Source: a virus
IMG/VR virus record: IMGVR_UViG_3300048548_000061
Span: 1-28,448 of that record
DNA: 28,448 nt
Direction: 5' to 3' (one strand)
The notes beneath the pieces were generated by a model, which saw only the letters and a list, made by a program, of their open reading frames with translations, was not told the origin of the DNA and made no database searches. Within the stretch, counting starts at the first letter, position 1; every line of letters begins with the position of its first letter. Below, in pieces: positions 2 through 14,225 of the stretch. The position numbers and the translations under genes were made by a program.

Positions 2-590
2 AGGTATACAGGAAACTATTTAAGAGATTTTGGCACAGCATATCAAAGTAACTATACTAGAAATTATACTGAACCTTATACTCCAAACTATATAAGTCAG
101 TATGTTACGCAATATACAAGAAATTTTGTGGGAAATTTTGAATCTCAGTTCACTGGAGTTTATCAAAGAAACTTCGTAAGAAATAATGATGTAGGTTATC
201 AAAAAGAGTTTGCAGGAACTTATGATCGTAATTTTGCAATAAATTATGTTAGCACTACTGATGTTAATTATGGCAAAGATTATCAAAGAAGATATACAGG
301 AAACTATGATAAGAATTTCGAATCTGTTCCTTATGATATAAATTATATTAGGCAGTTCAATGTTGCATATATACCTAACTATATCAGACAGTTTCAGGCA
401 TCCTATGATGGAACAGAATTTGTAGCACAATATCTGCAGACGTATACTGGCGCATATAATAAGGTTTATGAAGCTAATTATGAAGGTAATTATGAAAACA
501 ACTATGAAGGTAATTATGAAAACAACTATACTAGAGTATATGAAAATATCTATATAAAGGATTACCTTGGAAATTTTATTGGTAACTTTG
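2..590 (+). repeat. Coding 12-bp-period repeat (aromatic residue every 4 codons)
   Basis: A TAT/TAC or TTT/TTC codon recurs every 12 bases over nearly 600 bases, giving about 45 tetrapeptide units. The middle positions vary (TGN, TRN, IRQ, EGN, KDF and others) while the aromatic position is kept, so selection acts on the protein pattern. Phase slips by one residue occur around the ESVPY and DGTEF units. Confidence 0.85.
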
Positions 591-658
591 AGGGTGAAAC
601 TATTGATGCAACACATGAAACAAACGAGACATACACATTATATGTAAGAATCGCATAG
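2..658 (+). CDS. Tyr/Asn-rich tetrapeptide-repeat protein, probable virion/fibre protein (5' partial)
   Basis: The reading frame is open from base 2, so the start lies upstream of the window; the first internal ATG at 128 is not a credible start because the same repeat runs through it. The visible 218 residues are built almost entirely of four-residue units ending in Tyr or Phe (for example TGNY, TRNY, VGNF, EGNY, ENNY), about 45 units with only a few one-residue slips. The repeat stops near base 590 and a short non-repetitive tail follows (ending TLYVRIA). Composition is rich in Tyr, Asn, Phe, Gly and Arg and very poor in Cys, Trp and Met. I recall similar Y-T-G-N/D-Y repeat proteins next to structural genes in marine T4-like phages, but no function is established. 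Position beside fibre genes suggests a virion or adhesion role; that is inference. Confidence 0.7.
   Translation, partial: RYTGNYLRDFGTAYQSNYTRNYTEPYTPNYISQYVTQYTRNFVGNFESQFTGVYQRNFVRNNDVGYQKEFAGTYDRNFAINYVSTTDVNYGKDYQRRYTGNYDKNFESVPYDINYIRQFNVAYIPNYIRQFQASYDGTEFVAQYLQTYTGAYNKVYEANYEGNYENNYEGNYENNYTRVYENIYIKDYLGNFIGNFEGETIDATHETNETYTLYVRIA
479..526 (+). repeat. Exact 24-bp tandem duplication
   Basis: Two perfect adjacent copies of a 24-base unit (479-502 and 503-526) encode YEGNYENN twice. Each unit is itself two diverged 12-base sub-units. Perfect identity, against the divergence of the other repeats, suggests recent slippage or unequal recombination. Confidence 0.9.
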
Positions 659-667
659 GAGATTGAA

Positions 668-1117
668 ATGAAAAAAGAATGGAAACATCCATTTTGGGAA
701 AATGCAGCAAAGGATAGGATGACGGTTCGTTTGAATATTACTCATGATGATGGAACTTTTTCCACCACTGTTGCAAAAGTATCTAAATATGATGGAGAGG
801 GTAATATATCATCCGATTATGAAGAAGTGTTAGAACAAAACAGTATGGAAGAGGTTGATAGATTTACTGAAGAAAGACTTGAAAGACACCGCCAAGAACG
901 TGAGGCTAATATAAAAAAGCAGCAAGAAAAAAATGAATCTAAACGACTTGAAGATTTGTTTAATGCAAAACTGCAAACATTTGAAATACCTCAAATAAAA
1001 GAATCTACTAATCGCTCTTTAAAGTCAAAAATTAGGAAAGCAAAAAACACTATTGAAATGCAAGCATATGCTACTATACTATTGATGGAGATCATGAATG
1101 AAGGAAAATCCGACTAA
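668..1117 (+). CDS. Hypothetical coiled-coil protein, 149 aa
   Basis: The start ATG is preceded by an AGGAGA ribosome site in the 9-nt gap after the repeat gene. Residues about 1-55 look globular (EWKHPFW near the start, then a beta-rich stretch). Residues about 56-100 are strongly charged, Glu/Arg/Lys-rich and heptad-like (MEEVDRFTEERLERHRQERE), a likely coiled coil. The C-terminal 45 residues hold a basic segment (SLKSKIRKAKNTIEM) and a hydrophobic helix (YATILLMEIMN). I believe similar small proteins sit beside fibre genes in marine T4-like phages, but I know no function. The 3' end overlaps the next gene by 20 nt, implying coupled translation. No signal peptide or membrane segment is seen. 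Confidence 0.7.
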   Translation: MKKEWKHPFWENAAKDRMTVRLNITHDDGTFSTTVAKVSKYDGEGNISSDYEEVLEQNSMEEVDRFTEERLERHRQEREANIKKQQEKNESKRLEDLFNAKLQTFEIPQIKESTNRSLKSKIRKAKNTIEMQAYATILLMEIMNEGKSD

Positions 1118-1934
1118 AGGATTTGTGACTGTTGCGACTAAACGTAAACAGTTTTTAATGGGTGCTGATAATCTAAAAGAATCTTTACTTGATCACTGTC
1201 CTGATGCAAAGATAACTTTGTTTACTGAACAGCGTTTTATAGACGATCCTTCATGTCAAGTATATTTCAGAGACTTTGATAAAGTTCTTCCAACTCCTAG
1301 CAACACGAATAGAGAAAAGATGTGGGGAATGGCAAACTCCCCATACGATCTTACGTTCTATATGGACGCTGATATTGAAGTAGCTCATGATGATATAGCA
1401 AACATCTTCGATCATTTGGAAGATGGTGAATATGATATGGCATATGTTAATCTAACTAAAGAAGGTGCAAAGTATTTTGCTGAATGGGAATGGGGTCCAA
1501 ATCTATACGATGATGGATGGGAAGGAGTACCAGATCATTTAGCGCATTGTGGTGGTGTAGCTCTTTACGATATGCGTAATCCTCTTATAAAAGAGTTTAT
1601 GATGGATTGGTACGACTTGTTTTTAAAGCAAAGAGATGGTCGATGGAATCCAGAAGCTTTTGATTATATTAAGACAGGAAACTTTAGACAGTGGGATCAA
1701 CTAACTCTTTGGTGGTTGATATATCACTCACCTAAATATGAGTCGTTGAAGTGGAAGTTTTTTAAAGATAACTATAGGTGGAACTACTTTACAAGTTTTG
1801 GGTTTAATAAGGATGGAACACACAACTGTCACGAAGTTGATCCTACTAGAGATTATTGGAAAACTGATCCAGAACCTGTAATAATACATTATTCAAGTTG
1901 GATGGATAAGTTCGGAGATAAGGGAATTTTGTGA
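1098..1934 (+). CDS. Glycosyltransferase, GT-A fold (nucleotide-diphospho-sugar transferase type), 278 aa
   Basis: The N-terminus (FVTVATKRKQFLMGADNLKESL) fits the first beta-alpha unit of a GT-A Rossmann-like fold. A DxD motif (YMDADIEV, D90-A91-D92) is the expected Mn2+/sugar-nucleotide site. Downstream are a CGGVALYDMRN segment (151-161), resembling the acceptor-side loop of GT8-like enzymes, a conserved-looking RQWDQLTLWW (197-206), and a late HYSSW (264-268) that could hold a metal/phosphate ligand. The predicted role is sugar transfer from a nucleotide sugar to an acceptor that cannot be read from sequence: phage DNA, a virion protein or host surface glycan are all possible. The start overlaps the upstream gene by 20 nt with GGAG 8-10 nt ahead. 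It forms a cassette with the oxygenase-like gene and a second glycosyltransferase just before the fibre genes. Confidence 0.75.
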   Translation: MKENPTKGFVTVATKRKQFLMGADNLKESLLDHCPDAKITLFTEQRFIDDPSCQVYFRDFDKVLPTPSNTNREKMWGMANSPYDLTFYMDADIEVAHDDIANIFDHLEDGEYDMAYVNLTKEGAKYFAEWEWGPNLYDDGWEGVPDHLAHCGGVALYDMRNPLIKEFMMDWYDLFLKQRDGRWNPEAFDYIKTGNFRQWDQLTLWWLIYHSPKYESLKWKFFKDNYRWNYFTSFGFNKDGTHNCHEVDPTRDYWKTDPEPVIIHYSSWMDKFGDKGIL

Positions 1935-2617
1935 TGAATAAAAAAGTAAACTATATGAGAGACATTGATTTAAAAAACCAAGAGTTTTTAGATATCTTAA
2001 ATGAATATAAAGATGTGCTTCTTAAGAGAGATACTCCTGATGACGTTCCACTTATTGAAAAAGAAATACCTATAAATCATAAAGATGATAAAGCAGAAGA
2101 TTGGGTATCTGATCAATATCTAAAAGAGATCATATCTCAAGGAGAGGGTCATGATGGGTTTCCTAGAGTTCTAAAAGGATTTTCTGGTTTAAAACATGAG
2201 AATGAAAAAGATATTAGAGGAAGGGTTATTAAAGACGCTTCCAGAGTTCTGAACACTAAGCTTATTGAGTTTCTCTCTTGTCGCAATAATGCTCTTAATG
2301 CTTGTTATCCCCCCGGTGGTTTTATTTCTTGGCATAATAATGCGAATGCTTCGGGTTATAATATCATTATCACATATTCAGAGACAGGTGAAGGGTGGTT
2401 TGATTATTGGGATGTTGAAAAACAAGAGAGAGTTCGTATTCAAGATAAACAAGGTTGGCAAGCAAAGATGACATACTTTGGCCCTTATAGTGAGCCTGAT
2501 CAGGTGTGCTATCATGCTGCATATACTGACTGTTACCGTATTACTGTTGCATTTGTTTTTGCAGAAGCTGATACATTTTGGGAAGAGGTAATTGAGGATC
2601 TTGAAACAGAGTGTTAA
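1934..2617 (+). CDS. 2OG-Fe(II) oxygenase-like protein with HxN motif, 227 aa
   Basis: I prefer ATG at 1934, overlapping the previous stop by one base (TGATG), with GGAGATAAGGG about 10 nt upstream; a GTG at 1931 is also in frame and residue numbers here count it as 1. The double-stranded beta-helix core of the 2-oxoglutarate/Fe(II) dioxygenases is recognisable: YPPGGFISWHNNANASGYN (126-144), then VCYHAAYTDCYRITVAFVF (192-210). His135 and His195 match the two iron-binding histidines and Arg203, eight residues later, the 2OG-carboxylate arginine. The usual HxD acid is replaced by Asn137. Family members hydroxylate protein side chains, nucleobases or small molecules; the substrate here is unknown. 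It lies between two glycosyltransferases, suggesting hydroxylation followed by glycosylation of one target (inference). Confidence 0.72.
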   Translation: MNKKVNYMRDIDLKNQEFLDILNEYKDVLLKRDTPDDVPLIEKEIPINHKDDKAEDWVSDQYLKEIISQGEGHDGFPRVLKGFSGLKHENEKDIRGRVIKDASRVLNTKLIEFLSCRNNALNACYPPGGFISWHNNANASGYNIIITYSETGEGWFDYWDVEKQERVRIQDKQGWQAKMTYFGPYSEPDQVCYHAAYTDCYRITVAFVFAEADTFWEEVIEDLETEC

Positions 2618-3287
2618 TATTGTATGTGTCTGCGTAGGAACAAAATATACAAAAGAACATGTGAATAGACTGTATAGAATGGTAGAGCGTAACTGTACTC
2701 TACCATTTTCTTTTTATTGTATATCAGATGTTCAACAAGATGTCAATACTATTTTTATAAACGAAGATTTAGACTTAGAAACTTATTGGTGGAAAATAGA
2801 ACTTTTCAATCTTGACTTTGAAGACCCCACCCTGTATCTTGACTTAGATGTTGTGGTACAAAATAACCTAGACTATCTCTTCGACAAAATAGATGAGACG
2901 ATAAAAACGATTGCCTTTGAGGATATTGGTGCGTATTATCCATACGATGGAACTAAGGATAATATTTTGACTATTCCCTTAGGTAAAATAAATAGTTCTA
3001 TAATGCTACTATATCCATATCTTCACAAGGAACTATATAAAAAGTTTATTGAGAATATAGATTATAATATAGTACACTACTATGGATTGGATAGGTTTGT
3101 TAGCAATGAATATGATAGTTTGTCTTTTTTAGATTTTGGTAAAGATTATTATCACAGATCAAAGGGTTGTCTGCCTGATAATAAAATAGATAAATATAAT
3201 CTGAACTATGATCCTGAGATAACTATATGCATTTTATCTCAGTGTGAAGATGAACATTATAAAGGTTTAGAGAAATATTTCTTATAA
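2592..3287 (+). CDS. Second GT-A glycosyltransferase-like protein, 231 aa, TTG start
   Basis: The N-terminus (VNIVCVCVGTKYTKEHVNRL) is a typical first strand and helix of a nucleotide-sugar transferase. A DxD motif (TLYLDLDVVV, D84-L85-D86) follows a YWWKIELF segment. INSSIMLL (133-140) resembles the loop after the DxD in GT8-like enzymes, and DRFVSNEYD (about 166-174) fits the usual conserved Asp region. There is no in-frame ATG near the start: translation probably begins at TTG 2592 (GAAGAGG just upstream) or TTG 2601, overlapping the oxygenase gene by 26 or 17 nt. Weak starts inside the preceding gene suggest translational coupling. The stop codon lies inside the late promoter for the next unit. 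Acceptor unknown. Confidence 0.68.
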   Translation: MRILKQSVNIVCVCVGTKYTKEHVNRLYRMVERNCTLPFSFYCISDVQQDVNTIFINEDLDLETYWWKIELFNLDFEDPTLYLDLDVVVQNNLDYLFDKIDETIKTIAFEDIGAYYPYDGTKDNILTIPLGKINSSIMLLYPYLHKELYKKFIENIDYNIVHYYGLDRFVSNEYDSLSFLDFGKDYYHRSKGCLPDNKIDKYNLNYDPEITICILSQCEDEHYKGLEKYFL

Positions 3288-3290
3288 ATA
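3283..3290 (+). promoter_or_regulatory. T4-type late promoter TATAAATA (BppU-like/fibre unit)
   Basis: Exact match to the T4 late-promoter octamer, overlapping the stop of the glycosyltransferase gene and 34 nt before the next ATG. By T4 geometry transcription would start near 3296. It would drive the small structural protein and the fibre genes. Confidence 0.75.
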
Positions 3291-3324
3291 AAGGTAAAGT
3301 TAAAAATAACTAAGAGATTTACCT

Positions 3325-3681
3325 ATGTCGCAGTATGAAGATTTTACCATCGATCAAGGAACGGACTTCAATATTCAGTTGGAATTGGTCGATAAGAACA
3401 ATGCAAAGAAAAACTTAGCTGGTTATTCTTGTGCTGCACAAATTCGCAAAACATACTCTTCAAGTGATTCTGATGCAGTTACGTTTTCTACTCAAGTACA
3501 AGCACCTGCAGCAGATGGTGTATTGAACTTAACGTTAACTAACACTCAGACCAGTGCAATGAAGTCTGGTCGTTATGTCTATGATGTGGAGATTTCTTCT
3601 ACCGATAGTGCTGCGAACACTCTCGTTGAAAGAATACTAGAAGGACAGATCACAGTATCGCCTTCGGTTACTAGAACCTAA
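3325..3681 (+). CDS. Small Ig-like / BppU-N-like structural protein, 118 aa
   Basis: The protein is all-beta in pattern. It starts YEDFTIDQGTDFNIQLELVD, has a central AGYSCAAQIRKTY segment, continues DGVLNLTLTNTQTSAMKSGRYVYDVEI and ends EGQITVSPSVTR. This layout (Gln-Gly-Thr-Asp near the N-terminus, bipartite strands around a 'SGRYVYDVEI' motif, final 'EGQITVSPSVT') resembles the N-terminal Ig-like domain of baseplate upper protein BppU and small structural proteins next to fibre genes in marine T4-like phages. It is probably a virion component linking fibres to the baseplate, but that is inference. It is the first gene after the late promoter at 3283. Its stop overlaps the TAAGGAGA ribosome site of the next gene, so the two are likely co-translated. 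It carries one DSD tripeptide (SSDSDA). Confidence 0.6.
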   Translation: MSQYEDFTIDQGTDFNIQLELVDKNNAKKNLAGYSCAAQIRKTYSSSDSDAVTFSTQVQAPAADGVLNLTLTNTQTSAMKSGRYVYDVEISSTDSAANTLVERILEGQITVSPSVTRT

Positions 3682-3690
3682 GGAGACATA

Positions 3691-6600
3691 ATGGCTATTC
3701 GTATTGTATCGGCCGGGACAACGATTGTTAAAAGAGTAACCGTAGGAACGCCAACTAGAATCGGTGATCCTTCGGTTGGATCTATTATAACACTTGATGA
3801 TGTAAATGGTTCAACAAATCTTGCACATGGAACTTACATAAGATACGACTCAGATCTTAATAAGTTTATTCATACAGGTTTTGATAGTGATGCCAGAAAT
3901 CTTATCAGTGCTGATATTGCCTTATCATACGATCCTTCAACAGGACAAGTAATACACACTAACTCAGGTGTGGTTTCAGGCGCTTATGGAACTGCATCAC
4001 TCATCCCAACTATATCTGTAAATGATCTTGGTCATATTGATAGTATAGGAACAGTAAGTGTTGCAGGTGTATCTACCTTTACATTCGACTCTGATGAGGC
4101 AACTCTCAACATAGGAACTGCTGATGGCGGTTCATTTAATGCACGTATAGGCTTAAAACATTTTAGTACTAATGATCTAGTAGAGAGTGATAATCTATAC
4201 TTTACAGAAGCTAGAGTAGACACTGCTATTTTAGATGTTGTTAGAACGCAAGACGTTGCACTTATTGATAGTGCTAACGGTAATAGAATAACTAATATTA
4301 GTCAGACAGTTTTACCAAGCGGTAGACCAACCACATTAATCACATCAGCAGATTCTGCAAACAGTTTATTAATTTTAAGTAATCAGTTCGGTATAGCAAA
4401 TCCTGCAGGTGTGAAGTTACTTGAAACCTTTGGTGATAGTGGGCATATTGAACTTTACTTCAATGGGCAACATGCTATAGACACAACATCTTATGGTGTT
4501 AGAGTTTTTGGTCAAATGAGATCAGACTCTGCACAAGTCATAGGAAATCTGAATGTTGATGGTATTACTAGCCTAGACAGCACTAATGTTGTTGGAGATC
4601 TAAACGTCACAGGAGATCTAGGGTTTACGGGGGATCTAGCTGTAACTGGAAATGCAACAGTCACAGGAAGCATTTTATATCAAAACGTATTTGCTACTGA
4701 AGGTGATTTACCCAATGCCTCTACATACCATGGCATGTTCGCCCATGTTCATGCAACTGGCAAAGGATATTTCTCACACGCAGGTTCGTGGCATAAACTT
4801 TTAGATGAAAGTACTAGCACTACAACAGATCTTACGGAAGGAACAAACTTATATTATACGAGAGCACGTAGAGATTCTGATTTAGGTAATGTTGGTGTTG
4901 ATCTTTTACCGCTTTCTGACAGCGACTATGACTTAGGTTCCCCAACAAAGAAATGGAAAGATTTATATCTTTCAGGATCGTCAGTACACCTTGGTAGTAT
5001 AATATTAAAAGATGCTGATGGTCAACTTTCTGTGACCGACAACAGCGGAAATCCTGCAGCAGTAGATCTGTCATCTAACTCGACTTCAGACCTATCTGAA
5101 GGCACTAACTTATACTACACTACTGCACGTAATGACTCAGACACTAATGCATACATTGCAGGTAATAGAACGTATGGTAACATCACAACAACTGGTTACA
5201 TTGCTGGACCTGCTAACCTAACCATTGATCCTGCAGGTGTTGGAGACAACACAGGTAAAGTTATCATTGCAGGTGACCTTCAAGTTGATGGCGTACAAAC
5301 AATAGTAAACTCTACCACAGTTTCTATAAACGATAAAAATATTATTTTGGCAGACAGTGCTGCTGATAGTGCTGCTGCAAATGGTGCAGGTATTACTGTA
5401 GAAGGTGCAAACGCACTCATACAATATAATGCTACGACTGACACATGGGATCTGAACAAACCATTAGGCTCCACTAGAAATCATTTAGTTAACTTCAGTA
5501 CAACTAACTTATCAGAAGGCTCTAATCTATATTACACTAAAGTTAGAGTCGATAGTGATGTAAATCAAGGATTTGCAGATAGAACCACTGCAAATCTAGC
5601 TGAAGGTAGTAATCTATATTATACTACAGCAAGAGCGGATTCTGATGCTAAGAACTCTGTGTCTGTAACAGATAACGGTGGTGATGGATCTCTCACATAC
5701 ACACCTGCAACTGGTGTCATATCCTATACTGGTCCTAGTGCTGCAGAGACACGTGCTCATTTCTCAGGTGGCACAGGTATCACATATACAAGTGGTACAG
5801 GCGAGATTAAGATTACTGATACTACTGTTGTTGCAGGAACCTATGGTTCAGCGTCATTAGTTCCTGTATTTACGGTTAATGCCCAAGGTCAAGTAGACTC
5901 TATAGGCACTGTATCAGTAGCAGGAGTTTCAAGCACATCATTCGATAGTGCTTCAGGAATATTTACAATCAATACAGCAGATGGCGGGGTGTTCCCAACA
6001 ACCATTCTTGATAGCGATCTTACTAAGTCTAGAACTAGAGATGTTCTTGGCGCAGAGGATGCAGGTGGTGATGGTAGCTTTGCATACGACTCATCAAGAG
6101 GTGTCTTCACATATACTGGCCCTAGTGCTGCAGAAGTCAGAGCACACTTTAGTGCAGGTGGAGATCTAACATACAATAGCGGAACTGGCGAGTTTAGTTT
6201 TAATGTTGAAGATGTGTATACAAAAGCAAACTTTGACAGTGACTTTAATACTTCTATAGATGAAGCTGCTTTAGGTGGGGTGGGTCTTGATTACAACTCT
6301 ACAACAAATACTTTACGAATTGACTCAGCAGAATTATCGGCATACGCATTACCTATAAGAAGTTACTTTTCAGCAGCAGGGGATTTATCATATAATAATA
6401 CTACAGGTGAATTTAGTTTTGATGTTGAAAGTGTGTATACACAAGCTAACTTTGATAGTGATTTCAACACGTCATTGGATAATGCGGCTTTAGGTGGAAC
6501 TGGACTTTCATATGCTGCAGATAGTAATACTCTTAGTATCACTAATACAGGTGTAACTTCAGGATCATATGGTTCAGCTTCATTAGTTCCTGTACTAGCA

Positions 6601-7305
6601 ATCAATGGTCAAGGTCAAATTACATCAGCGTCCACAGTTTCTGTTGCGGGTGTATCCTCAACAAGCTTTGATAGTGCTTCAGGAATATTCACAATCAGTA
6701 CTGCAGATGGTGGAACCTTCAATACAACAATCCTAGACTCTGACTTATCAGCTTCTAGAGCAAGAGATGTTGTGAGAGCGGTTGACGCAGGTGGGGATGG
6801 TAGCTTTGTATACGACTCAGCTTCAGGCACATTCACATACACTGGTCCATCAGCATCTGAAACAAGAGCACACTTCTCAGGTGGAAACGGTATTGAGATT
6901 ACTAATGGTAAAGTTGATATGGACTCTGCATATGATGCGGTGTTTAATACAGCAACCATAACCACAGGTGAAATATACACAACACCTACTGAGACTTCTG
7001 TGAATGATAATAGTGCAACTGTTGTTGACACTGAGGCTCATGGAAGCGACTTTAAATCTATAGAGTATGTTGTGCATATGGATGATGATGCAGCAGGACA
7101 TTCTCAGATTTCTAAACTACTATTAACATATAATAAAACAAGCGTGTTCTATTCAGAGTATGGTATGGTAAGTTCTTTCACAGGAGACAGTGATATCGGA
7201 GCTTTGACTGCAGATGTTAGTGGTTCGGATATTAGATTACTATTTACTAGAGCAAGTGGCATGGGAACAATAAGTGTGAAACCAGTGAAAACTGTAATAT
7301 CATAA
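3691..7305 (+). CDS. Large modular tail fibre-like protein, 1204 aa
   Basis: A long, Ser/Thr/Asp/Gly-rich, Cys-free, beta-rich protein typical of phage fibre shafts. The start has a strong TAAGGAGA site 4 nt before ATG. Three module types recur. Module A (LSEGTNLYYTTARxDSD-like) is at residues 379-397, 466-484, 604-623 and 635-652, with a degenerate copy near 160-178. Module B (YGSASLVPVFTVNAQGQ... VAGVSSTSFDSASG... TADGG) is at 96-149, 717-769 and 957-1010. Module C (GGDGS... YTGPSAAETRAHFSGG) is at 663-708, 792-838 and 1033-1070. A VIGNLNVDG/VTGDLGFTG tract (283-327) resembles the short repeats of many fibres. Residues from about 1085 to the end are non-repetitive and may be the tip or a trimerisation domain. 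At least 13 DSD tripeptides occur. The role in host adsorption is inferred from composition, repeats and position. Confidence 0.75.
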   Translation: MAIRIVSAGTTIVKRVTVGTPTRIGDPSVGSIITLDDVNGSTNLAHGTYIRYDSDLNKFIHTGFDSDARNLISADIALSYDPSTGQVIHTNSGVVSGAYGTASLIPTISVNDLGHIDSIGTVSVAGVSTFTFDSDEATLNIGTADGGSFNARIGLKHFSTNDLVESDNLYFTEARVDTAILDVVRTQDVALIDSANGNRITNISQTVLPSGRPTTLITSADSANSLLILSNQFGIANPAGVKLLETFGDSGHIELYFNGQHAIDTTSYGVRVFGQMRSDSAQVIGNLNVDGITSLDSTNVVGDLNVTGDLGFTGDLAVTGNATVTGSILYQNVFATEGDLPNASTYHGMFAHVHATGKGYFSHAGSWHKLLDESTSTTTDLTEGTNLYYTRARRDSDLGNVGVDLLPLSDSDYDLGSPTKKWKDLYLSGSSVHLGSIILKDADGQLSVTDNSGNPAAVDLSSNSTSDLSEGTNLYYTTARNDSDTNAYIAGNRTYGNITTTGYIAGPANLTIDPAGVGDNTGKVIIAGDLQVDGVQTIVNSTTVSINDKNIILADSAADSAAANGAGITVEGANALIQYNATTDTWDLNKPLGSTRNHLVNFSTTNLSEGSNLYYTKVRVDSDVNQGFADRTTANLAEGSNLYYTTARADSDAKNSVSVTDNGGDGSLTYTPATGVISYTGPSAAETRAHFSGGTGITYTSGTGEIKITDTTVVAGTYGSASLVPVFTVNAQGQVDSIGTVSVAGVSSTSFDSASGIFTINTADGGVFPTTILDSDLTKSRTRDVLGAEDAGGDGSFAYDSSRGVFTYTGPSAAEVRAHFSAGGDLTYNSGTGEFSFNVEDVYTKANFDSDFNTSIDEAALGGVGLDYNSTTNTLRIDSAELSAYALPIRSYFSAAGDLSYNNTTGEFSFDVESVYTQANFDSDFNTSLDNAALGGTGLSYAADSNTLSITNTGVTSGSYGSASLVPVLAINGQGQITSASTVSVAGVSSTSFDSASGIFTISTADGGTFNTTILDSDLSASRARDVVRAVDAGGDGSFVYDSASGTFTYTGPSASETRAHFSGGNGIEITNGKVDMDSAYDAVFNTATITTGEIYTTPTETSVNDNSATVVDTEAHGSDFKSIEYVVHMDDDAAGHSQISKLLLTYNKTSVFYSEYGMVSSFTGDSDIGALTADVSGSDIRLLFTRASGMGTISVKPVKTVIS
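3976..6720 (+). repeat. Module B copies inside the 1204-aa fibre gene
   Basis: Three copies of a roughly 53-residue module lie at 3976-4137, 5839-5997 and 6559-6720. The later two are much closer to each other at the protein level than either is to the first. A fourth copy is in the 405-aa fibre gene at 12928-13083. Confidence 0.8.
4825..5646 (+). repeat. Module A copies (SEGTNLYYT motif) in the 1204-aa fibre gene
   Basis: Copies at 4825-4881, 5086-5142, 5500-5559 and 5593-5646 encode L-(S/T/A)-E-G-(T/S)-N-L-Y-Y-T followed by an Arg and D-S-D. Three more copies are in the next gene at 7510-7563, 8164-8211 and 8239-8292. Confidence 0.85.
5677..6900 (+). repeat. Module C copies (GPSAAETRAHF motif) in the 1204-aa fibre gene
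   Basis: Copies at 5677-5814, 6064-6204 and 6787-6900, with a related degenerate copy (RSYFSAAGDLSYNN) near 6358-6441. A further copy lies in the 641-aa fibre gene at 8326-8445. Each places GGDGS and GPSA ahead of an R-A-H-F turn. Confidence 0.82.
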
Positions 7306-7308
7306 ATA
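7301..7308 (+). promoter_or_regulatory. Possible variant late promoter CATAAATA
   Basis: Seven of eight bases match TATAAATA. It overlaps the stop codon of the 1204-aa gene, 28 nt before the next ATG, the same arrangement as the site at 3283. The first-base mismatch makes it weaker evidence. Confidence 0.4.
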
Positions 7309-7335
7309 CAGATAACGCCTTGGGGAAAGTGAACT

Positions 7336-9261
7336 ATGGCAGAAAAAGATTTTAAAGTTAAAAATGGCTTATTTGTAACTGATAGTGCAAATGTCAACGA
7401 TCTAAATGTGCGTGGAACTGCAGAAGTTACAGGCGCTATTACTGCGACAGGTGGTGTTGTTGGTAACGTTACAGGTCAAGTAAGCGACATTTCTAATCAC
7501 AATACGGGTGATCTCACAGAGGGTAGTAACCTATACTATACTACTGCTAGAGGTGATAGTGATACCACAGCCTTAGTAGACTCTGCATATATTACATTAA
7601 GAACACCTGAGTACGTTAGACTAACAGGCGCACAAACTCTCACAGATAAAACTTTAGTTGATCCTATTATTGACTCAACGCAAATGTATGGTATGCAGTA
7701 TGGTGGCATATCATTTAATGTTGATGGTCAACTAGGCGACTCACTTCAATCCGTACTTAACTTCACATCAAAAGAAGCAGGTGAAGATGCAGTATTAAGT
7801 TTAGGTGTTAATGGTCAGTTTAATCATGCTATTGGTGTTACAGGAAATGCAGCATCTAATGATATGGTCATTGGATTTGAAGGTGCCAATACTGAACTCA
7901 AGATTAAAAGTGGTGTTGGTAAAGCCCCATTTAATCTAAGTGGTGGCACAGATCTTCTTACCATGGATACAGGTGGTAAGATAAATGTTACTAACCCAAC
8001 AGAAGCAACAACTAAAACAAATGCTGCAGTAACAATTGTTGGTGGTCTTGGTGTTGATAAAAACATTCGTGGGCAAGACATTATTGCTCAAGGTAATGTC
8101 ACTGCCACAGGAACACTGTTTGGTACATTGTCTGCTGCATCTCTTTCTGCTAGATCCACAAGTGATCTAAGTGAAGGCACTAATCTATATTACACAGATG
8201 CAAGAGTAGATTCATATGTCAATGCTTCTATACTAACTACTGATGTATCTGAAGGAACTAACCTCTATTACACCACAGCAAGAGCCGATAGTGCAGCTAA
8301 GAATGCTATCTCTGTCAACGATGGTGGTGGTGATGGTAGTTTATCATATAGTGCTTCTACAGGTATAATATCGTATCAGGGTCCAAGTGCTGCTGAAGTA
8401 AGAGCGCACTTCACTGGTGGAACTGGTGTTACTATAACTAGTGGCTCTATTGCCATTGGTCAGGATGTTAGTACGGGTGCGTCTGTTACCTTTGATACTT
8501 TAGCTGTTTCAAATAATGCTACAATATCAGGTGACTTGACGGTTGGTGGAGATTACATTCTAAACGAAACAACTGACCTTAGAGTTACCAATGCACTGAT
8601 CAAACTTGCAGATTCAAATAATCAAGATGCGGTAGATATTGGTGTTGTTGGTAGATACAAAGACTCAGCAGGTGGTCCTATTAGAAGGTCAGGATTTTTC
8701 AGAGATGCTACAGACGGTGAGTGGTATACGTTTGTTAATCTTATCCAAGATAATTTAGATAGTTCTCCTGCGTCTCAAATCATCAACAGATCAGATCCTT
8801 CTTTTGAGTTAGGTACGTGGAATTTCGGTGCTTTGAAGGGTAGATACTTAGGGTTTGACTCAGACTTCAGAGTTTTTTCTACAGACTATACCGTTTACAC
8901 CTCAGATTTTACTGCAGTATCTGCAGGAAGATATGCAATCGATACTTCAGGGGGTGTGGTTACAGTAACTCTTCCTGCAAATCCAACAACAGGAGATTAC
9001 ATAAGACTTATTGATGTTGGAAACTGGACAGGAAACTCTGTCATTCTCAACAGAAATGGCGAGACCATTGAAGGTTATTCAGAAAACTTTGAACTTGATT
9101 TAGGTCAATCTATCATTGAGTTAATACATATAAATAATAATTGGCAGCTATACTCATCTATTGGTCAGAGGGGTCAAAAAGGTGATAAAGGCGATTCAGC
9201 AGATGTTGCAACATTCAGTACACAAAGTCAGTCTATAGCATTCGCAGTGGCATTAGGATAG
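7336..9261 (+). CDS. Modular tail fibre-like protein with collagen-like C-terminal tract, 641 aa
   Basis: The N-terminus (KDFKVKNGLFVTDSANVND) resembles the start of fibre proteins that attach by a short beta segment. Module A copies lie at residues 59-76, 277-292 and 302-319 and module C at 331-370; all match the preceding gene. A TLTDKTLVDPIID motif (101-113) is a common fibre repeat that also recurs in the 405-aa fibre. Residues about 528-600 form a distinct domain (AGRYAIDTSGGVVTVTLPANP, GDYIRLIDVGNW, VILNRNGETIEGY) seen in many marine phage structural proteins. A short Gly-X-Y tract (GQRGQKGDKGD, 610-620) places Arg and Lys in the Y position. The ribosome site is GGGGAAAG. Probable adsorption or distal fibre component; paralogous to its neighbour by shared modules. 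Confidence 0.75.
   Translation: MAEKDFKVKNGLFVTDSANVNDLNVRGTAEVTGAITATGGVVGNVTGQVSDISNHNTGDLTEGSNLYYTTARGDSDTTALVDSAYITLRTPEYVRLTGAQTLTDKTLVDPIIDSTQMYGMQYGGISFNVDGQLGDSLQSVLNFTSKEAGEDAVLSLGVNGQFNHAIGVTGNAASNDMVIGFEGANTELKIKSGVGKAPFNLSGGTDLLTMDTGGKINVTNPTEATTKTNAAVTIVGGLGVDKNIRGQDIIAQGNVTATGTLFGTLSAASLSARSTSDLSEGTNLYYTDARVDSYVNASILTTDVSEGTNLYYTTARADSAAKNAISVNDGGGDGSLSYSASTGIISYQGPSAAEVRAHFTGGTGVTITSGSIAIGQDVSTGASVTFDTLAVSNNATISGDLTVGGDYILNETTDLRVTNALIKLADSNNQDAVDIGVVGRYKDSAGGPIRRSGFFRDATDGEWYTFVNLIQDNLDSSPASQIINRSDPSFELGTWNFGALKGRYLGFDSDFRVFSTDYTVYTSDFTAVSAGRYAIDTSGGVVTVTLPANPTTGDYIRLIDVGNWTGNSVILNRNGETIEGYSENFELDLGQSIIELIHINNNWQLYSSIGQRGQKGDKGDSADVATFSTQSQSIAFAVALG
9129..9136 (+). promoter_or_regulatory. 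Possible intragenic late promoter TATAAATA
   Basis: Exact octamer inside the 641-aa fibre coding region, 135 nt before the 978-aa gene, which otherwise has no promoter in its 9-nt gap. The bases encode H-I-N-N in an AT-rich context, so chance is a real alternative. Confidence 0.3.
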
Positions 9262-9270
9262 GAAAATAAA

Positions 9271-12207
9271 ATGGCGAAACAACTAGTAAGAGATTACGTT
9301 TTTACACCGGGATCAGCGGGTGCAGGTACTATTGTTGTACCATGCAGATATGAACTTGACAAACTTCTCTTGATTACAAATGTAACAGATAACGTGATTA
9401 TCTATAACTTTGGTGATGCGTCATTTGCAGGAACCACTACAGCATTTACAAAAGGAACCACAACAGACTTTCCCACAGTAGATACATTGCATAGTGGGTA
9501 TACCACCATCACTTTAGCTGCAGATACATCTTCTATGAGTGCCTCAGACGTTCTGCAAATCTTTGCAGAACCTCAAGTGGACTTTGGTCAGACTATCAGA
9601 CCATGGCAATTTGGTACAGACGCTATCGAAAGAATGCGTGTATCAACACCCGAATCAATGATCGATGCTGACTTTGAATATGGATTGCAGCCTACTAAGT
9701 GGGCAGGGTATGGTACGATTAAAGGATACCCATCCACATATGATGAGCCGGGAGTTGACCTTACAGTTAACACTATTACCACAGACTATCAAACTTCTAG
9801 TACTTCAAATAGTTTGATCAGTATCACGTTTGTAGATTTAGATCACGATTTATCTGTTGGAGATGTTGTAAACGTATCAGGACTAGACGCAGGTACAGCA
9901 GGATTCTCACGGGCTGATGGTAGTTTTATTATTGATCAGGTTCCAGACACCCAAACTATTAAATACTTTGCACGTGGAACTGTAGGAACATCAAGTGGTC
10001 AATCACTTAAAACAGAAGAGACTATTGGTAGAAAGGGTGGAGTATACGCAAACTCATCTATTCCTGTAGCATCAGCAACTTCTAATGGCGCTGATCCAAG
10101 TGTGATTACACTTAACTTTACAAATCCGCATGGATTAATCCCAGGTTGTCCTGTTCATGTTACAGTGGGCGCAGGTACAAATAAAGAAGAAGCTACAGGA
10201 CCATTTGTTGTTAAATCAACACCATCTTTGACTTCATTAACATATACAGCAAGGGCAGGGGCGGCTGTAGGAAGTCCTTCTAGTGTTACTCTGTATGCTA
10301 TCTCAAACGCAACTATTTTGCACAGACCTTCTGATGGTGGGGTTATTCTCTCGACTAAAACTCCTACATATGCTGCTGCAGTTATCAGACAATCAAAAAG
10401 ATTCTTCCGCTACCAATCTGGTAAAGGTTTCTTGTGGTCATCAGGTACGTTATTTGCACCAAACTATGATCTACAAAGCATTACTGCAGCAGGAACGACA
10501 GTTGGTTCTGCGATTACTGTAAAGACTGACGATATCGATCATGGTCTTCAAGTAGGGGCAGATATTACTCTTGAAGGTATTACAACTTCGGGGTATGAAG
10601 ATGATTACACAGTTGCAAGTATTGTAGATGACTATACATTCACAGTTGCTGCAAAATCAACGTTGGGAGACACTACTGCTGTCTTAGCTCAACAATCTAA
10701 GGTGTATGTAAAAGGTTGGGTTGGTTCTGCTGTTCGTGCAGGTATGTTTGATGATCAAAATGGTATCTTCTTTGAATTTGATGGCAACCAAATGTTCTGT
10801 GTTAAAAGATCCTCCACAGACAATATTACTGGCACACTGTCAATGACACAAAACAGTAATGCTGTGACAGGAAGTAACACAAGACTCACTGAACAGGTGC
10901 GAGCTGGTGATCGTATAATTATTAGAGGAATGACACACTTTGTTACTCAGGTTGTAAGCAATACCTCTATGTTCATTACACCAGATTACAGAGGTGTGAC
11001 ACAAGGTGGTATTAGATCTCAAAAAGTATCAGAACTCAGAGTTCCTCAATCAAAATGGAATATGGATAAAGCTGATGGTCTAGGATCTTCTGGATACCAT
11101 TGGGATTTTAACAAGATGCAAATGATTGGTATTGAGTACTCTTGGTATGGTGCAGGTTTCATTCACTTCATGGTTAGAGGTGATGATGGTAGATGGTTAT
11201 ATATCCATAGAATGAAAAACAACAACATTAATGATGAAGCTTATATGAGATCAGGCAACCTTCCTGTTAGATATTCTATTGAGAATGACTCTCCAATCAC
11301 CTTTCTTACAAATACTATTGATGCAACTCAAACAACAATTCCGGGAGCTAACTTACAAGAGTTTGATGATGCGGGTGTATTAATGATTGACAACGAAATC
11401 ATTTCATATACAGGCAGAAGCGTAACAGATGGAGCGGGTAACTTTACAGGATGTACTAGAGCGGCAACTCTATCTCAGTATCTCCAAGGTACTACAAATA
11501 ACCTTACAGCAGGTAGTGCTGCAACTCATAGTAGTAATACTGGTATTATTGAGATTTCCAACACTTGTTCTCCAACACTATCGCATTGGGGTTCTGCCCT
11601 AGTAATGGACGGTGGATTTGACTTTGATAGAGGTTATATTTTTAACTACTCAAACTCTCACAATACATCTGGCGATAAGATTGGTACAACTCCAATCACA
11701 TCATTCTGTTTGAGACTAGCTCCTTCAGTATCTAACTCTTCTGTGGGTCGATTAGGGGCAAAGGAACTTCTTAATAGATCACAACTTCTTTTACAACAAT
11801 GTGCGGTTGGATTGTCACGTGGTTCATCTTCATCGGGTGAGGTGGTTGTTCAGGGTATCATTAATCCAAGAAATTTCTCTGACGCATCATGGAAATCATT
11901 GAATGCTGTTGATGATGGTGGACAACCATCCTTTGCTCAAGTTGCTGATAAAGATGATATCACTTGGTCTACAGGATCATATGCGTTACCAGGCGAAAGA
12001 ATCTTCTCATTCGTTTGTAATGCATCTAGAGCGGATGCTTTGACAACTGTTCTTGAACTAGGTGGTCTTAAAGAACTATCAGGTGCTCCATTGGGTGGCG
12101 ACTACAAATATCCAGATGGCCCAGATGTTTTGGCTATCAATGCTTTTGTTAAATCAGGTGATGTGAAAGGAACGATTCAGTTAAGATGGGGCGAAGCCCA
12201 AGCATAA
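9271..12207 (+). CDS. Large virion structural protein, 978 aa
   Basis: The start has an AGGAAAA site in the 9-nt gap. The N-terminal third holds segments I associate with a conserved large structural protein of T4-like cyanophages: FGTDAIERMRVSTPESMIDA and then DFEYGLQPTKWAGYGTIKG (about residues 114-152). The middle has repeated Ig-like or beta-sandwich segments with 'HDLSVGDVVNVSGLD' and 'HGLQVGADITLEGIT', apparently paired internal repeats (also 'HGLIPGCPVHVTVG'). The C-terminal half has SSGYHWDFNKMQMIGIEYSW, FMVRGDDGRWLYIHRMKNNN and a DNEIISYTG turn motif. It lacks modules A, B and C and has no DSD tripeptide, unlike its flanking fibres. A structural role is likely from position and resemblance; exact location in the virion cannot be read. 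Confidence 0.68.
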   Translation: MAKQLVRDYVFTPGSAGAGTIVVPCRYELDKLLLITNVTDNVIIYNFGDASFAGTTTAFTKGTTTDFPTVDTLHSGYTTITLAADTSSMSASDVLQIFAEPQVDFGQTIRPWQFGTDAIERMRVSTPESMIDADFEYGLQPTKWAGYGTIKGYPSTYDEPGVDLTVNTITTDYQTSSTSNSLISITFVDLDHDLSVGDVVNVSGLDAGTAGFSRADGSFIIDQVPDTQTIKYFARGTVGTSSGQSLKTEETIGRKGGVYANSSIPVASATSNGADPSVITLNFTNPHGLIPGCPVHVTVGAGTNKEEATGPFVVKSTPSLTSLTYTARAGAAVGSPSSVTLYAISNATILHRPSDGGVILSTKTPTYAAAVIRQSKRFFRYQSGKGFLWSSGTLFAPNYDLQSITAAGTTVGSAITVKTDDIDHGLQVGADITLEGITTSGYEDDYTVASIVDDYTFTVAAKSTLGDTTAVLAQQSKVYVKGWVGSAVRAGMFDDQNGIFFEFDGNQMFCVKRSSTDNITGTLSMTQNSNAVTGSNTRLTEQVRAGDRIIIRGMTHFVTQVVSNTSMFITPDYRGVTQGGIRSQKVSELRVPQSKWNMDKADGLGSSGYHWDFNKMQMIGIEYSWYGAGFIHFMVRGDDGRWLYIHRMKNNNINDEAYMRSGNLPVRYSIENDSPITFLTNTIDATQTTIPGANLQEFDDAGVLMIDNEIISYTGRSVTDGAGNFTGCTRAATLSQYLQGTTNNLTAGSAATHSSNTGIIEISNTCSPTLSHWGSALVMDGGFDFDRGYIFNYSNSHNTSGDKIGTTPITSFCLRLAPSVSNSSVGRLGAKELLNRSQLLLQQCAVGLSRGSSSSGEVVVQGIINPRNFSDASWKSLNAVDDGGQPSFAQVADKDDITWSTGSYALPGERIFSFVCNASRADALTTVLELGGLKELSGAPLGGDYKYPDGPDVLAINAFVKSGDVKGTIQLRWGEAQA

Positions 12208-12225
12208 CCATAAGAAAGTGTAAAG

Positions 12226-13443
12226 ATGGTACAAAAACTTAGTGATTTTTTAGGCACTTCATTTAGTGAAAACCCTGTAGACTCTTCAGGGATCGTGTCT
12301 ATTATTGGCACGACAACAATATTACTAGATTCAGGTACTAGTGGCAACTATGTTAAGACGTTAACAGGTGCAGCAGGATTGGACATAACCTCTCCTGCAC
12401 ACGCACTTGATGCGACTATTTCCATCGACAGTGATCACATTGCAACAAGAACTGGCACACAAACTCTTACAAACAAAACTATTAACTTAAGTAACAATAC
12501 TCTAGTAACTACACTATCACAACTTAGTGCTGCAGTTAGTGGCGACACAGTTATTGGCGCACAGGCAACACAAACTTTAGCAAATAAGACATTAACTAGT
12601 CCTACGATAAACGGCGCTGATATCAATGGTCCTTTAGCTATCAATGATATTACTACCTTTGGTCTTAGGGATGTTACTACCACAGATTACGAAACTCTTA
12701 TCGTATCTAATAACGCAAGTCCTGCATTAACAGCAGACAGAACTCTTACGCTTGATATTAACAATGCCAATAGGACCATTAGTCTTGCAGGAGATCTGAC
12801 ATTAGCAGGTAATCTAATCACAAGTGGTGGGCATGCTGTTACGCTAACGACTACAGGAGCAACTGGTGTAACATTACCAACATCAGGAACACTTGTCTCT
12901 AGGGCATCTGCACTTGGAACCACAGGAACATTTGGATCTGCTTCTTTGGTTCCAATAATAACTGTGAACTCTCAAGGGTTGGTTGATAGTATAGGTACAG
13001 TTTCTGTAGCAGGTGTTAGCTCAACATCATTCGATTCTGCTGCAGGTGCATTAACAATCAACACTGCTGATGGTGGTTCTTTTGTACAGCCTATCTATAC
13101 ACAAGAATTGACAAGAACTGCAGTAAGTGGTAGCACAGGTATTAGCTACAATAATAGTACTGGCGCTATATCAACCAATGATGGTGCGATTGTTCATGAC
13201 AACTTGTCAGGTTTCGTGGGCAACGAACATATTAACCATACTAGTGTAACATTAACAGCAGGTACTGGTTTAGCAGGTGGGGGTACTATTGCCGCAAGCA
13301 GAACTTTTAGTATAGACTCAAGTGAACTGCATGCATACTTTGGGGGTGCAGGTAAAGGTATGGACGCAGACTTACTTGACGGGCAGCATGGTTCACACTA
13401 CCGTATTGATGTTTACGATGCGTCTGGAACTCTTTTGAACTAA
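12226..13443 (+). CDS. Tail fibre-like protein with DLLDGQHGSHY C-terminal motif, 405 aa
   Basis: The start is preceded by AAGAAAGTG. Two fibre repeats (TQTLTNKTINLSNNT, 79-93, and ATQTLANKTLTSPTI, 114-128) belong to the widespread TLTNKT family. Residues 235-286 are a near-copy of module B of the 1204-aa fibre (GSASLVP, DSIGTVSVAGVSSTSFDSA, NTADGGSF). Residues 341-366 (VTLTAGTGLAGGGTIAASRT) are a common fibre segment. The C-terminus has DADLLDGQHGSHYR (380-393), a motif recurrent at the ends of T4-family and prophage fibres. The protein is short for a whole fibre and may be a distal or accessory one. It is the last gene before the late promoter at 13444. Confidence 0.75.
   Translation: MVQKLSDFLGTSFSENPVDSSGIVSIIGTTTILLDSGTSGNYVKTLTGAAGLDITSPAHALDATISIDSDHIATRTGTQTLTNKTINLSNNTLVTTLSQLSAAVSGDTVIGAQATQTLANKTLTSPTINGADINGPLAINDITTFGLRDVTTTDYETLIVSNNASPALTADRTLTLDINNANRTISLAGDLTLAGNLITSGGHAVTLTTTGATGVTLPTSGTLVSRASALGTTGTFGSASLVPIITVNSQGLVDSIGTVSVAGVSSTSFDSAAGALTINTADGGSFVQPIYTQELTRTAVSGSTGISYNNSTGAISTNDGAIVHDNLSGFVGNEHINHTSVTLTAGTGLAGGGTIAASRTFSIDSSELHAYFGGAGKGMDADLLDGQHGSHYRIDVYDASGTLLN
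12928..13083 (+). repeat. Module B copy shared with the 1204-aa fibre gene
   Basis: This stretch encodes a version of the roughly 53-residue module found three times between 3976 and 6720, the only copy of module B outside that gene in the window. It marks exchange or duplication between two fibre genes separated by two other genes. Confidence 0.8.
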
Positions 13444-13472: not shown

Positions 13473-14225
13473 ATGGCTAACCCTAGTTCAAGACAAGGCT
13501 TAATAGATTACTGCTTACGCAGACTAGGTGATCCTGTCATCGAAATCAATGTGGATGAAGATCAAATAGAAGATCGTGTAGATGAGGCTCTACAGTATTT
13601 CAGGGAGTTTCATTCAGAAGCCACGTATAGAGGATATATTCAACACCTCTTGACTGCAGATGATATTACTAACAAGTATGTTTCGATATCCTCTGATGTT
13701 CAACAGGTCACCAAACTATTTAAGTTAGAGCAAGGTTTGTTCTCACGTAATATGTTTAGTGTCAAATACCAAATGCATATGAACGATATAGCCAACATGG
13801 GTTCTTATGTTGGAGATCTTGCATACTATGAGCAAGTACAACAATATCTTTCTCTACTTGATATGAGATTAAATGGCACTCCACAGGTAGAGTATGTAAG
13901 GAAACAAAATCGCTTATACATTCACGGTAACTTTGATGATGGTGATATCAAAGAAGGCGAATATATTGTAGCAGAAGTCTATAGTATTATTGATGGTGCT
14001 ACTCACACAGCAGTGTGGAATGACTTGTGGTTAAAAGAATATACTACAGCACTTATCAAACATCAGTGGGGCGCAAACCTTATCAAGTTTGAAGGAATGC
14101 AAATGCCTGGAGGGGTTACAATAAACGGTAGACAAATCTATGAAGATGCGTTACAAGATATCGAAAGATTAAGAGAGAGAATCCGTTTGGAACATGAACT
14201 TCCTGCAGATTTCTTTGTAGGCTAA
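13473..14225 (+). CDS. gp13: Neck protein gp13, 250 aa
   Basis: Matches T4-family neck protein gp13 in features I recognise: N-terminal SRQGLIDYCLRRLGDPVIEINVDEDQIEDRVDEALQYF, a long Met-rich middle (MFSVKYQMHMNDI), VYSIIDGATHTAVWNDLWLKEYTTALIKHQWGANLIKFEG, and a C-terminal GGVTINGRQIYEDALQDIERL. Gp13 and gp14 build the collar joining the filled head to the tail. Length is somewhat under T4 gp13 (about 309 aa), as is usual in marine relatives. AGGAAC lies 6-11 nt before ATG, and gp14 begins one base after the stop. Sequence and synteny agree. Confidence 0.92.
   Translation: MANPSSRQGLIDYCLRRLGDPVIEINVDEDQIEDRVDEALQYFREFHSEATYRGYIQHLLTADDITNKYVSISSDVQQVTKLFKLEQGLFSRNMFSVKYQMHMNDIANMGSYVGDLAYYEQVQQYLSLLDMRLNGTPQVEYVRKQNRLYIHGNFDDGDIKEGEYIVAEVYSIIDGATHTAVWNDLWLKEYTTALIKHQWGANLIKFEGMQMPGGVTINGRQIYEDALQDIERLRERIRLEHELPADFFVG

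Follow-up and report, generated by a model that had tools for sequence, protein, structure and literature searches.

A giant, probably tail-fibre-type adhesin with a period-four aromatic array in uncultured T4-like phages

Fibre chaperones encoded directly 3' of fibre genes are known (PMC4576200), and glycosyltransferases and curli genes of related pelagimyophages have been discussed as cell-surface functions (PMC7029224). A protein with the array described below was found in a single isolate, phage C48C1 (OQ984149), the sole match in an array search of 50,697 phage records. Its gene for the hypothetical protein WJE88074.1 is complete, encodes 3,347 aa and is followed by the same genes as in our window. 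A literature search returned no paper on the array or on C48C1 and no function for this protein. The sequence-only reading of our locus had mentioned similar repeats in marine phages, which we can back for this one isolate and for many uncultured contigs. The window is the whole of IMGVR_UViG_3300048548_000061, a 28,448-base virus fragment that reads as a T4-like late region. Further on it encodes terminase, sheath, tube, portal and capsid proteins, recognised from their ORF sequences and, for the capsid, with a database match. The major capsid protein is closest to that of C48C1 (66%), followed by Methylophilales phage Melnitz and Pelagibacter phage HTVC008M (∼60%).

The features of the window are collected in Table 1. 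An open frame (+2) of 218 aa runs from base 2 to the stop codon at 656-658. The first bases of the contig already lie within the repeat gene, whose 5' part is therefore absent. Tyr or Phe occupies 47 of the first 199 residues, and of the 46 steps from one aromatic to the next, 42 span four residues, two span eight and two span five. Y/F pairs number 42 at lag 4, where 10.9 are expected, and 39 at lag 8, with none at lags 2, 3, 6, or 7; in 20,000 shuffles the lag-4 count never exceeded 20. The array slips twice by one residue, and in two further units the aromatic is replaced. The residue preceding the aromatic is Asn in 20 of 42 cases, and the one before that is Gly or Arg in 19 of 42. These counts bear out the initial description of about 45 x-x-x-(Y/F) units with almost no slips, and also its view that the repeat is neither a heptad nor a pentapeptide one, as the period is four and no Pfam match lies above cut-off. 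The span first given to the array (2-590) was right to within a few bases (it ends at ∼592), whereas the gene itself runs on to 658 through a conserved C-terminal motif, here ETYTLYVRIA. A frame or strand artefact was dismissed because the pattern appears in frame +2 only and is mirrored by the antisense ORF (20-616).

Table 1. Features of the window around the repeat gene, with the basis of each assignment
Feature	Position	Strand	Basis
Period-4 aromatic array, 3' part of the repeat-protein gene	2..592	+	Lag statistics; tblastn with the C48C1 3347-aa protein, 2e-14
Conserved C-terminal tail, ...GETIDATHETNETYTLYVRIA and stop	593..658	+	Motif in 97/101 complete distinct relatives; alignment
Small charged, probably coiled partner, 149 aa	668..1117	+	Adjoins last repeat gene in 94/96 loci
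GT-A-like glycosyltransferase, DAD motif	1098..1934	+	Glycos_transf_2 E=3e-4, below curated cut-off; 42/42 non-redundant loci
Oxygenase-like protein, YPPGGFISWHNNANA...YHAA..CWR motifs, possible 2OG-Fe(II) type	1931..2617	+	Motifs only; 42/42 loci
Second glycosyltransferase, GT8-like	2592..3287	+	PHROG 1962 E=1.4e-10; Glyco_transf_8 E=0.007, below cut-off
LtfC-like / L-shaped tail fibre assembly protein	3325..3681	+	PHROG 3304 E=6e-21; LtfC E=2e-4, below cut-off; 42/42 loci
Tail-fibre and virion structural genes	3691..13443	+	PHROG matches

Relatives of the window's protein share an architecture of an N-domain of ∼265 aa, a phase-locked array, and a TYTLYVR C-tail, and the intact relatives with the same neighbour genes as the window carry the N-domain. 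Searches of viral contigs gave 36 loci by the array and eight by the small neighbour gene, and a profile search with the N-domain gave at least 192 matches. The domain is present in 126 ORFs that differ from one another on the criteria of length and final 200 residues, in nearly all of which a lag-4 aromatic excess follows it. The 101 complete distinct ORFs, some of which are close variants so that the counts do not represent independent lineages, range from 409 to 3,884 aa (median 869), and 97 of them end in a [YF]T[LM]Y.R-type motif. Two tandem copies of the repeat gene occur in 54 of 120 loci. A comparable lag-4 excess is seen in just eight of 773 other ORFs of at least 200 aa in the same loci; seven are truncated or interrupted family members, the window's included, and the eighth, in L031, has a different N-terminus. 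This last ORF (L031:1535-5749) encodes a 1,405-aa protein with the array behind an unrelated N-terminus and no TYTLYVR tail, which makes the array a module able to pass from one protein to another. At L082:7986-11499 the repeat gene is split within the array into two overlapping ORFs, by a frameshift or an assembly error. A single query of genome contigs for prophage or host relatives yielded none. Neither Pfam nor PHROGs holds a family for the array protein, and a known repeat or domain family was set aside after the other family libraries searched gave no match either. Judged by these comparisons, the proteins form an undescribed family that is widespread in contigs of uncultured T4-like phages.

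The consensus unit, computed on 99 members after redundancy filtering, is [T/A/V/S/I]-[G 65%/R 22%]-[N 48%/D 21%]-[Y 60%/F 40%], and in these members the phase persists for more than 60 residues, which fits a repeat-matched fold. Arg fills 76% of the positions at which an aromatic is skipped, and some relatives contain steps of six and ten, so the single invariant aromatic class proposed at the outset was too strict. An Arg at position 2 is seldom followed by Arg in the next unit (53 R-R neighbours vs 368 expected); units with Arg at position 2 end in Phe, and octads of the form Y-x-R-[ND]-F-x-G-[NDE] are common. Even steps other than four are six and ten in L111 and L125 (YAGPTN, NYLGEASGAV) and six, mixed with four, in L184 (YAGSRN), and the even-spacing pattern is clear in L111, L125, and the second ORF of L184. 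As a family-wide rule, strict even spacing (beta parity) was rejected, since distances of 2 mod 4 outnumber odd ones by a small margin only. N-glycosylation sequons (N-Y/F-S/T) show no enrichment and were likewise rejected as a feature of the array: the figure is 37% where N precedes, 35% for D and 43% for the remaining residues. The variant YAGSRN cassette of L184 adjoins another large repetitive ORF (L184:6679-12072) of ∼1,800 aa with SGVSERVLVASGALQGEESVAGNAEREIDDQGGN units.

Codons were compared in 48 pairs of relatives, some of which repeat the same contigs. Aromatic codons are unchanged in 65.8% of cases, synonymous in 26.6%, exchanged between Tyr and Phe in 7.1%, and changed otherwise in 0.5%, a lower bound because the alignment favours matching aromatics. 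The contrast with non-synonymous change at positions 1 and 3 of the unit (27.8% and 22.9%) is still large, and position 2 stands at 3.5%. This pattern shows purifying selection on the aromatics and position 2 across relatives, in agreement with the selection on the aromatic pattern claimed from the window. It also bears on the idea that the array is a functionless low-complexity product of 12-base tandem duplication. Recent tandem copies in the window (EGNYENNYEGNYENNY) and the indels between relatives, frequently multiples of four residues, are what such a process would leave, and yet the codon-level selection, the conserved ends, and the fixed gene neighbourhood make this explanation very improbable.

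AlphaFold gives a confident model of the N-domain (pLDDT 85, pTM 0.79), for which fold searches of the PDB and viral libraries returned no match (best E 0.87 and 0.24) and which corresponds to no known attachment domain by fold or sequence. The AlphaFold2 monomer of the window's array and C-tail has a mean pLDDT of 36 and no repeat-matched structure. This result means only that the single chain is not predicted to fold, as an intertwined trimer and a disordered chain would look alike. Against solved structures, the array profile matched an exoribonuclease only (0.001), which we read as a chance low-complexity match, and solved beta-helices gave no sequence match to the array. The retained phase fits the distinct solenoid or stacked-aromatic fibre first suggested, the monomer prediction does not show it, and such a fold is a plausible candidate. 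The same prediction would suit an array that is a long disordered sticky polymer on the virion or in the cell, with Tyr/Arg stickers and Gly/Asn/Thr spacers that make multivalent weak contacts or condensates. The composition (Y 12%, R 11%, G 11%, K 0.4%, C 0.02%) resembles that of sticker-and-spacer domains, and array length ranges from near zero to several thousand residues. However, the strict phase and the alternation of G/R and Y/F, including the shortage of R-R neighbours, exceed what sticker spacing needs, though unit duplication also keeps phase, and the drift at positions 1 and 3 is not shared by the aromatics and position 2, which stay conserved. We consider a disordered polymer unlikely, if still a serious contender.

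The domains, promoter, and surroundings of the gene favour a phage adhesin. The extra domains are all seen in relatives, the window's ORF being known from its 3' part: Laminin_G_3 (1.5e-15) lies within the array of L004, GLEYA (8.6e-5) and PA14 (1e-3) are found in L095, both below curated cut-offs, a stretch of tail-fibre PHROG 30742 lies inside the N-domain of L045 (6e-5), and C48C1 matches tail-fibre PHROG 16053 (0.004). The tail-fibre matches come from inserted domains of some relatives only; the N-domain, array, and C-tail matched no tail-fibre family. An FG-GAP_2 beta-propeller (5.9e-16) is also present in L004 (3356-4555), inserted within the N-domain and not the array. Upstream of the repeat gene are an S74-type tail fibre in L043 (S74 recognised from sequence) and a Phage_tail_APC chaperone (2e-17) in C48C1. 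The motif TATAAATA, in T4 the late promoter, occurs no more than 150 bases upstream of 29 of the 67 first repeat genes, compared with 1.4 expected. The repeat gene sits in a tail-fibre cluster that also holds the LtfC-like assembly gene, a location typical of tail fibres, and a PHROG-supported gene for a gp13-like neck protein lies at 13473. Because the window encodes tail fibres near the neck genes separately, the aromatic-repeat protein would be an addition to these fibres and not their replacement. The tail-fibre ORFs at 3691-9261 of the window contain repeated L[ST]EG[ST]NLYYT.AR.DSD motifs.

All 42 non-redundant loci with enough sequence keep one order, in which the repeat gene or genes come first and are followed by the glycosyltransferase-like, the oxygenase-like, and the LtfC-like gene; in the window the partner and these last three genes lie within 668-3681. 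In the two of 96 loci where the partner does not adjoin the last repeat gene, it is within ∼3.4 kb. The partner has no match in Pfam, PHROG, or NCBIfam, and we propose that it is a dedicated assembly chaperone or adaptor. Seeding the search from the oxygenase-like gene instead recovered the partner and glycosyltransferase in 50 of 52 non-redundant loci and a detected repeat gene or C-tail in 48, and two of the other four (L179, L184) hold a repeat protein that the detector missed. In the last two, at L180:4577-5212 and L206:5175-5825, a lone oxygenase-like copy has a tail-tube-like gene on one side and a small gene on the other, with no repeat cassette, and three places in C48C1 match the oxygenase-like family. 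Among isolates, the partner, glycosyltransferase-like, and oxygenase-like genes matched only in C48C1. The GT8-like gene is found in 11 of the 42 loci and is restricted to the window's subgroup. The oxygenase-like alignment has an invariant H-x-N...H...R, where the 2OG-Fe(II) pattern is HxD...H...R; this protein has no profile support, and a profile-profile comparison with real phage oxygenases also gave no match. We regard the assignments of the glycosyltransferase-like and oxygenase-like genes as weak.

This neighbourhood also weighs on a reading in which the product is a secreted or surface late protein, such as a coat of the infected cell or a sibling-capture fibre on it, and not part of the virion. 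The position in the tail-fibre cluster, the assembly-type neighbours, the constant partner gene, and the T4-type late promoter all speak against it, and we consider it improbable. In its favour are the linked glycosyltransferase-like genes and the cell-surface discussion of pelagimyophage glycosyltransferases and curli genes (PMC7029224).

We hold with fair confidence that the repeat gene encodes a giant modular tail-fibre-type adhesin of T4-like phages, which comes with a dedicated assembly partner and perhaps modification enzymes as well. Attachment to the tail or baseplate would fall to the conserved N-domain of this adhesin, and the period-four array, free to vary in length, would serve as a long stalk and as the surface of contact. 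One side chain in four (Tyr/Phe, occasionally Arg) may be stacked on one face of an extended beta structure, probably a homotrimer, while the lectin-like and other binding domains of some members would touch the host surface. The TYTLYVR C-tail may set the register or cap the fibre, aided by the downstream partner as an assembly chaperone, and the array may be a substrate of the linked glycosyltransferase-like and oxygenase-like gene products. Their constant linkage with the partner leads to an idea open to direct testing, self-modification of the fibres by these phages, which we offer as an attractive but provisional extension. The fullest version, a self-contained decorated fibre in which a new stacked-aromatic beta structure is hydroxylated and glycosylated by the same late cassette and folded by its own chaperone, seems to us doubtful. 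Uncultured T4-like phages appear to carry a widespread, unnamed family of adhesins of the virion type, very long at up to ∼3,900 aa, whose array type is absent from the family libraries searched and whose N-domain is without a known fold match, and the simple aromatic-ladder repeat is a subject for structural work.

Set beside known systems, the array shares a short period with pentapeptide-repeat and heptad coiled-coil proteins; pentapeptide-repeat proteins repeat over five residues with a central L/F, unlike the period of four here. The tail-fibre-like SWTG_00067 of cyanophage S-RIM2 has T-G-[N/D]-phi tetrapeptides (LTGNVTGNVTGDLTGNV), and its gene lies directly upstream of the gp13 neck gene, but it has aliphatic V/L in place of the aromatic, another N-terminus, no conserved C-tail, and no linked cassette; the likeness is one of the repeat only. 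Its aliphatic period-four array (L003:9001-9210; LTGNVTGNVTGD), at a similar genome position, is possibly an aliphatic counterpart. The C-terminal triple-stranded beta-helix of T4 gp5 (VxGxxxxx) also builds a fibre from short repeats with a large residue and glycine in fixed register (PMC4576200), and its x-G spacing recurs in the frequent array octad F-x-G-[ND]-Y-x-R-[ND], a loose analogy, as the array differs from the VxGxxxxx octad in having twice the large residues, aromatic and not valine. C48C1 WJE88074.1 differs from the window in an array richer in glycine and arginine and in several inserted domains, and shares with the family the N-domain, the period-four array, the C-tail, and the downstream gene order.
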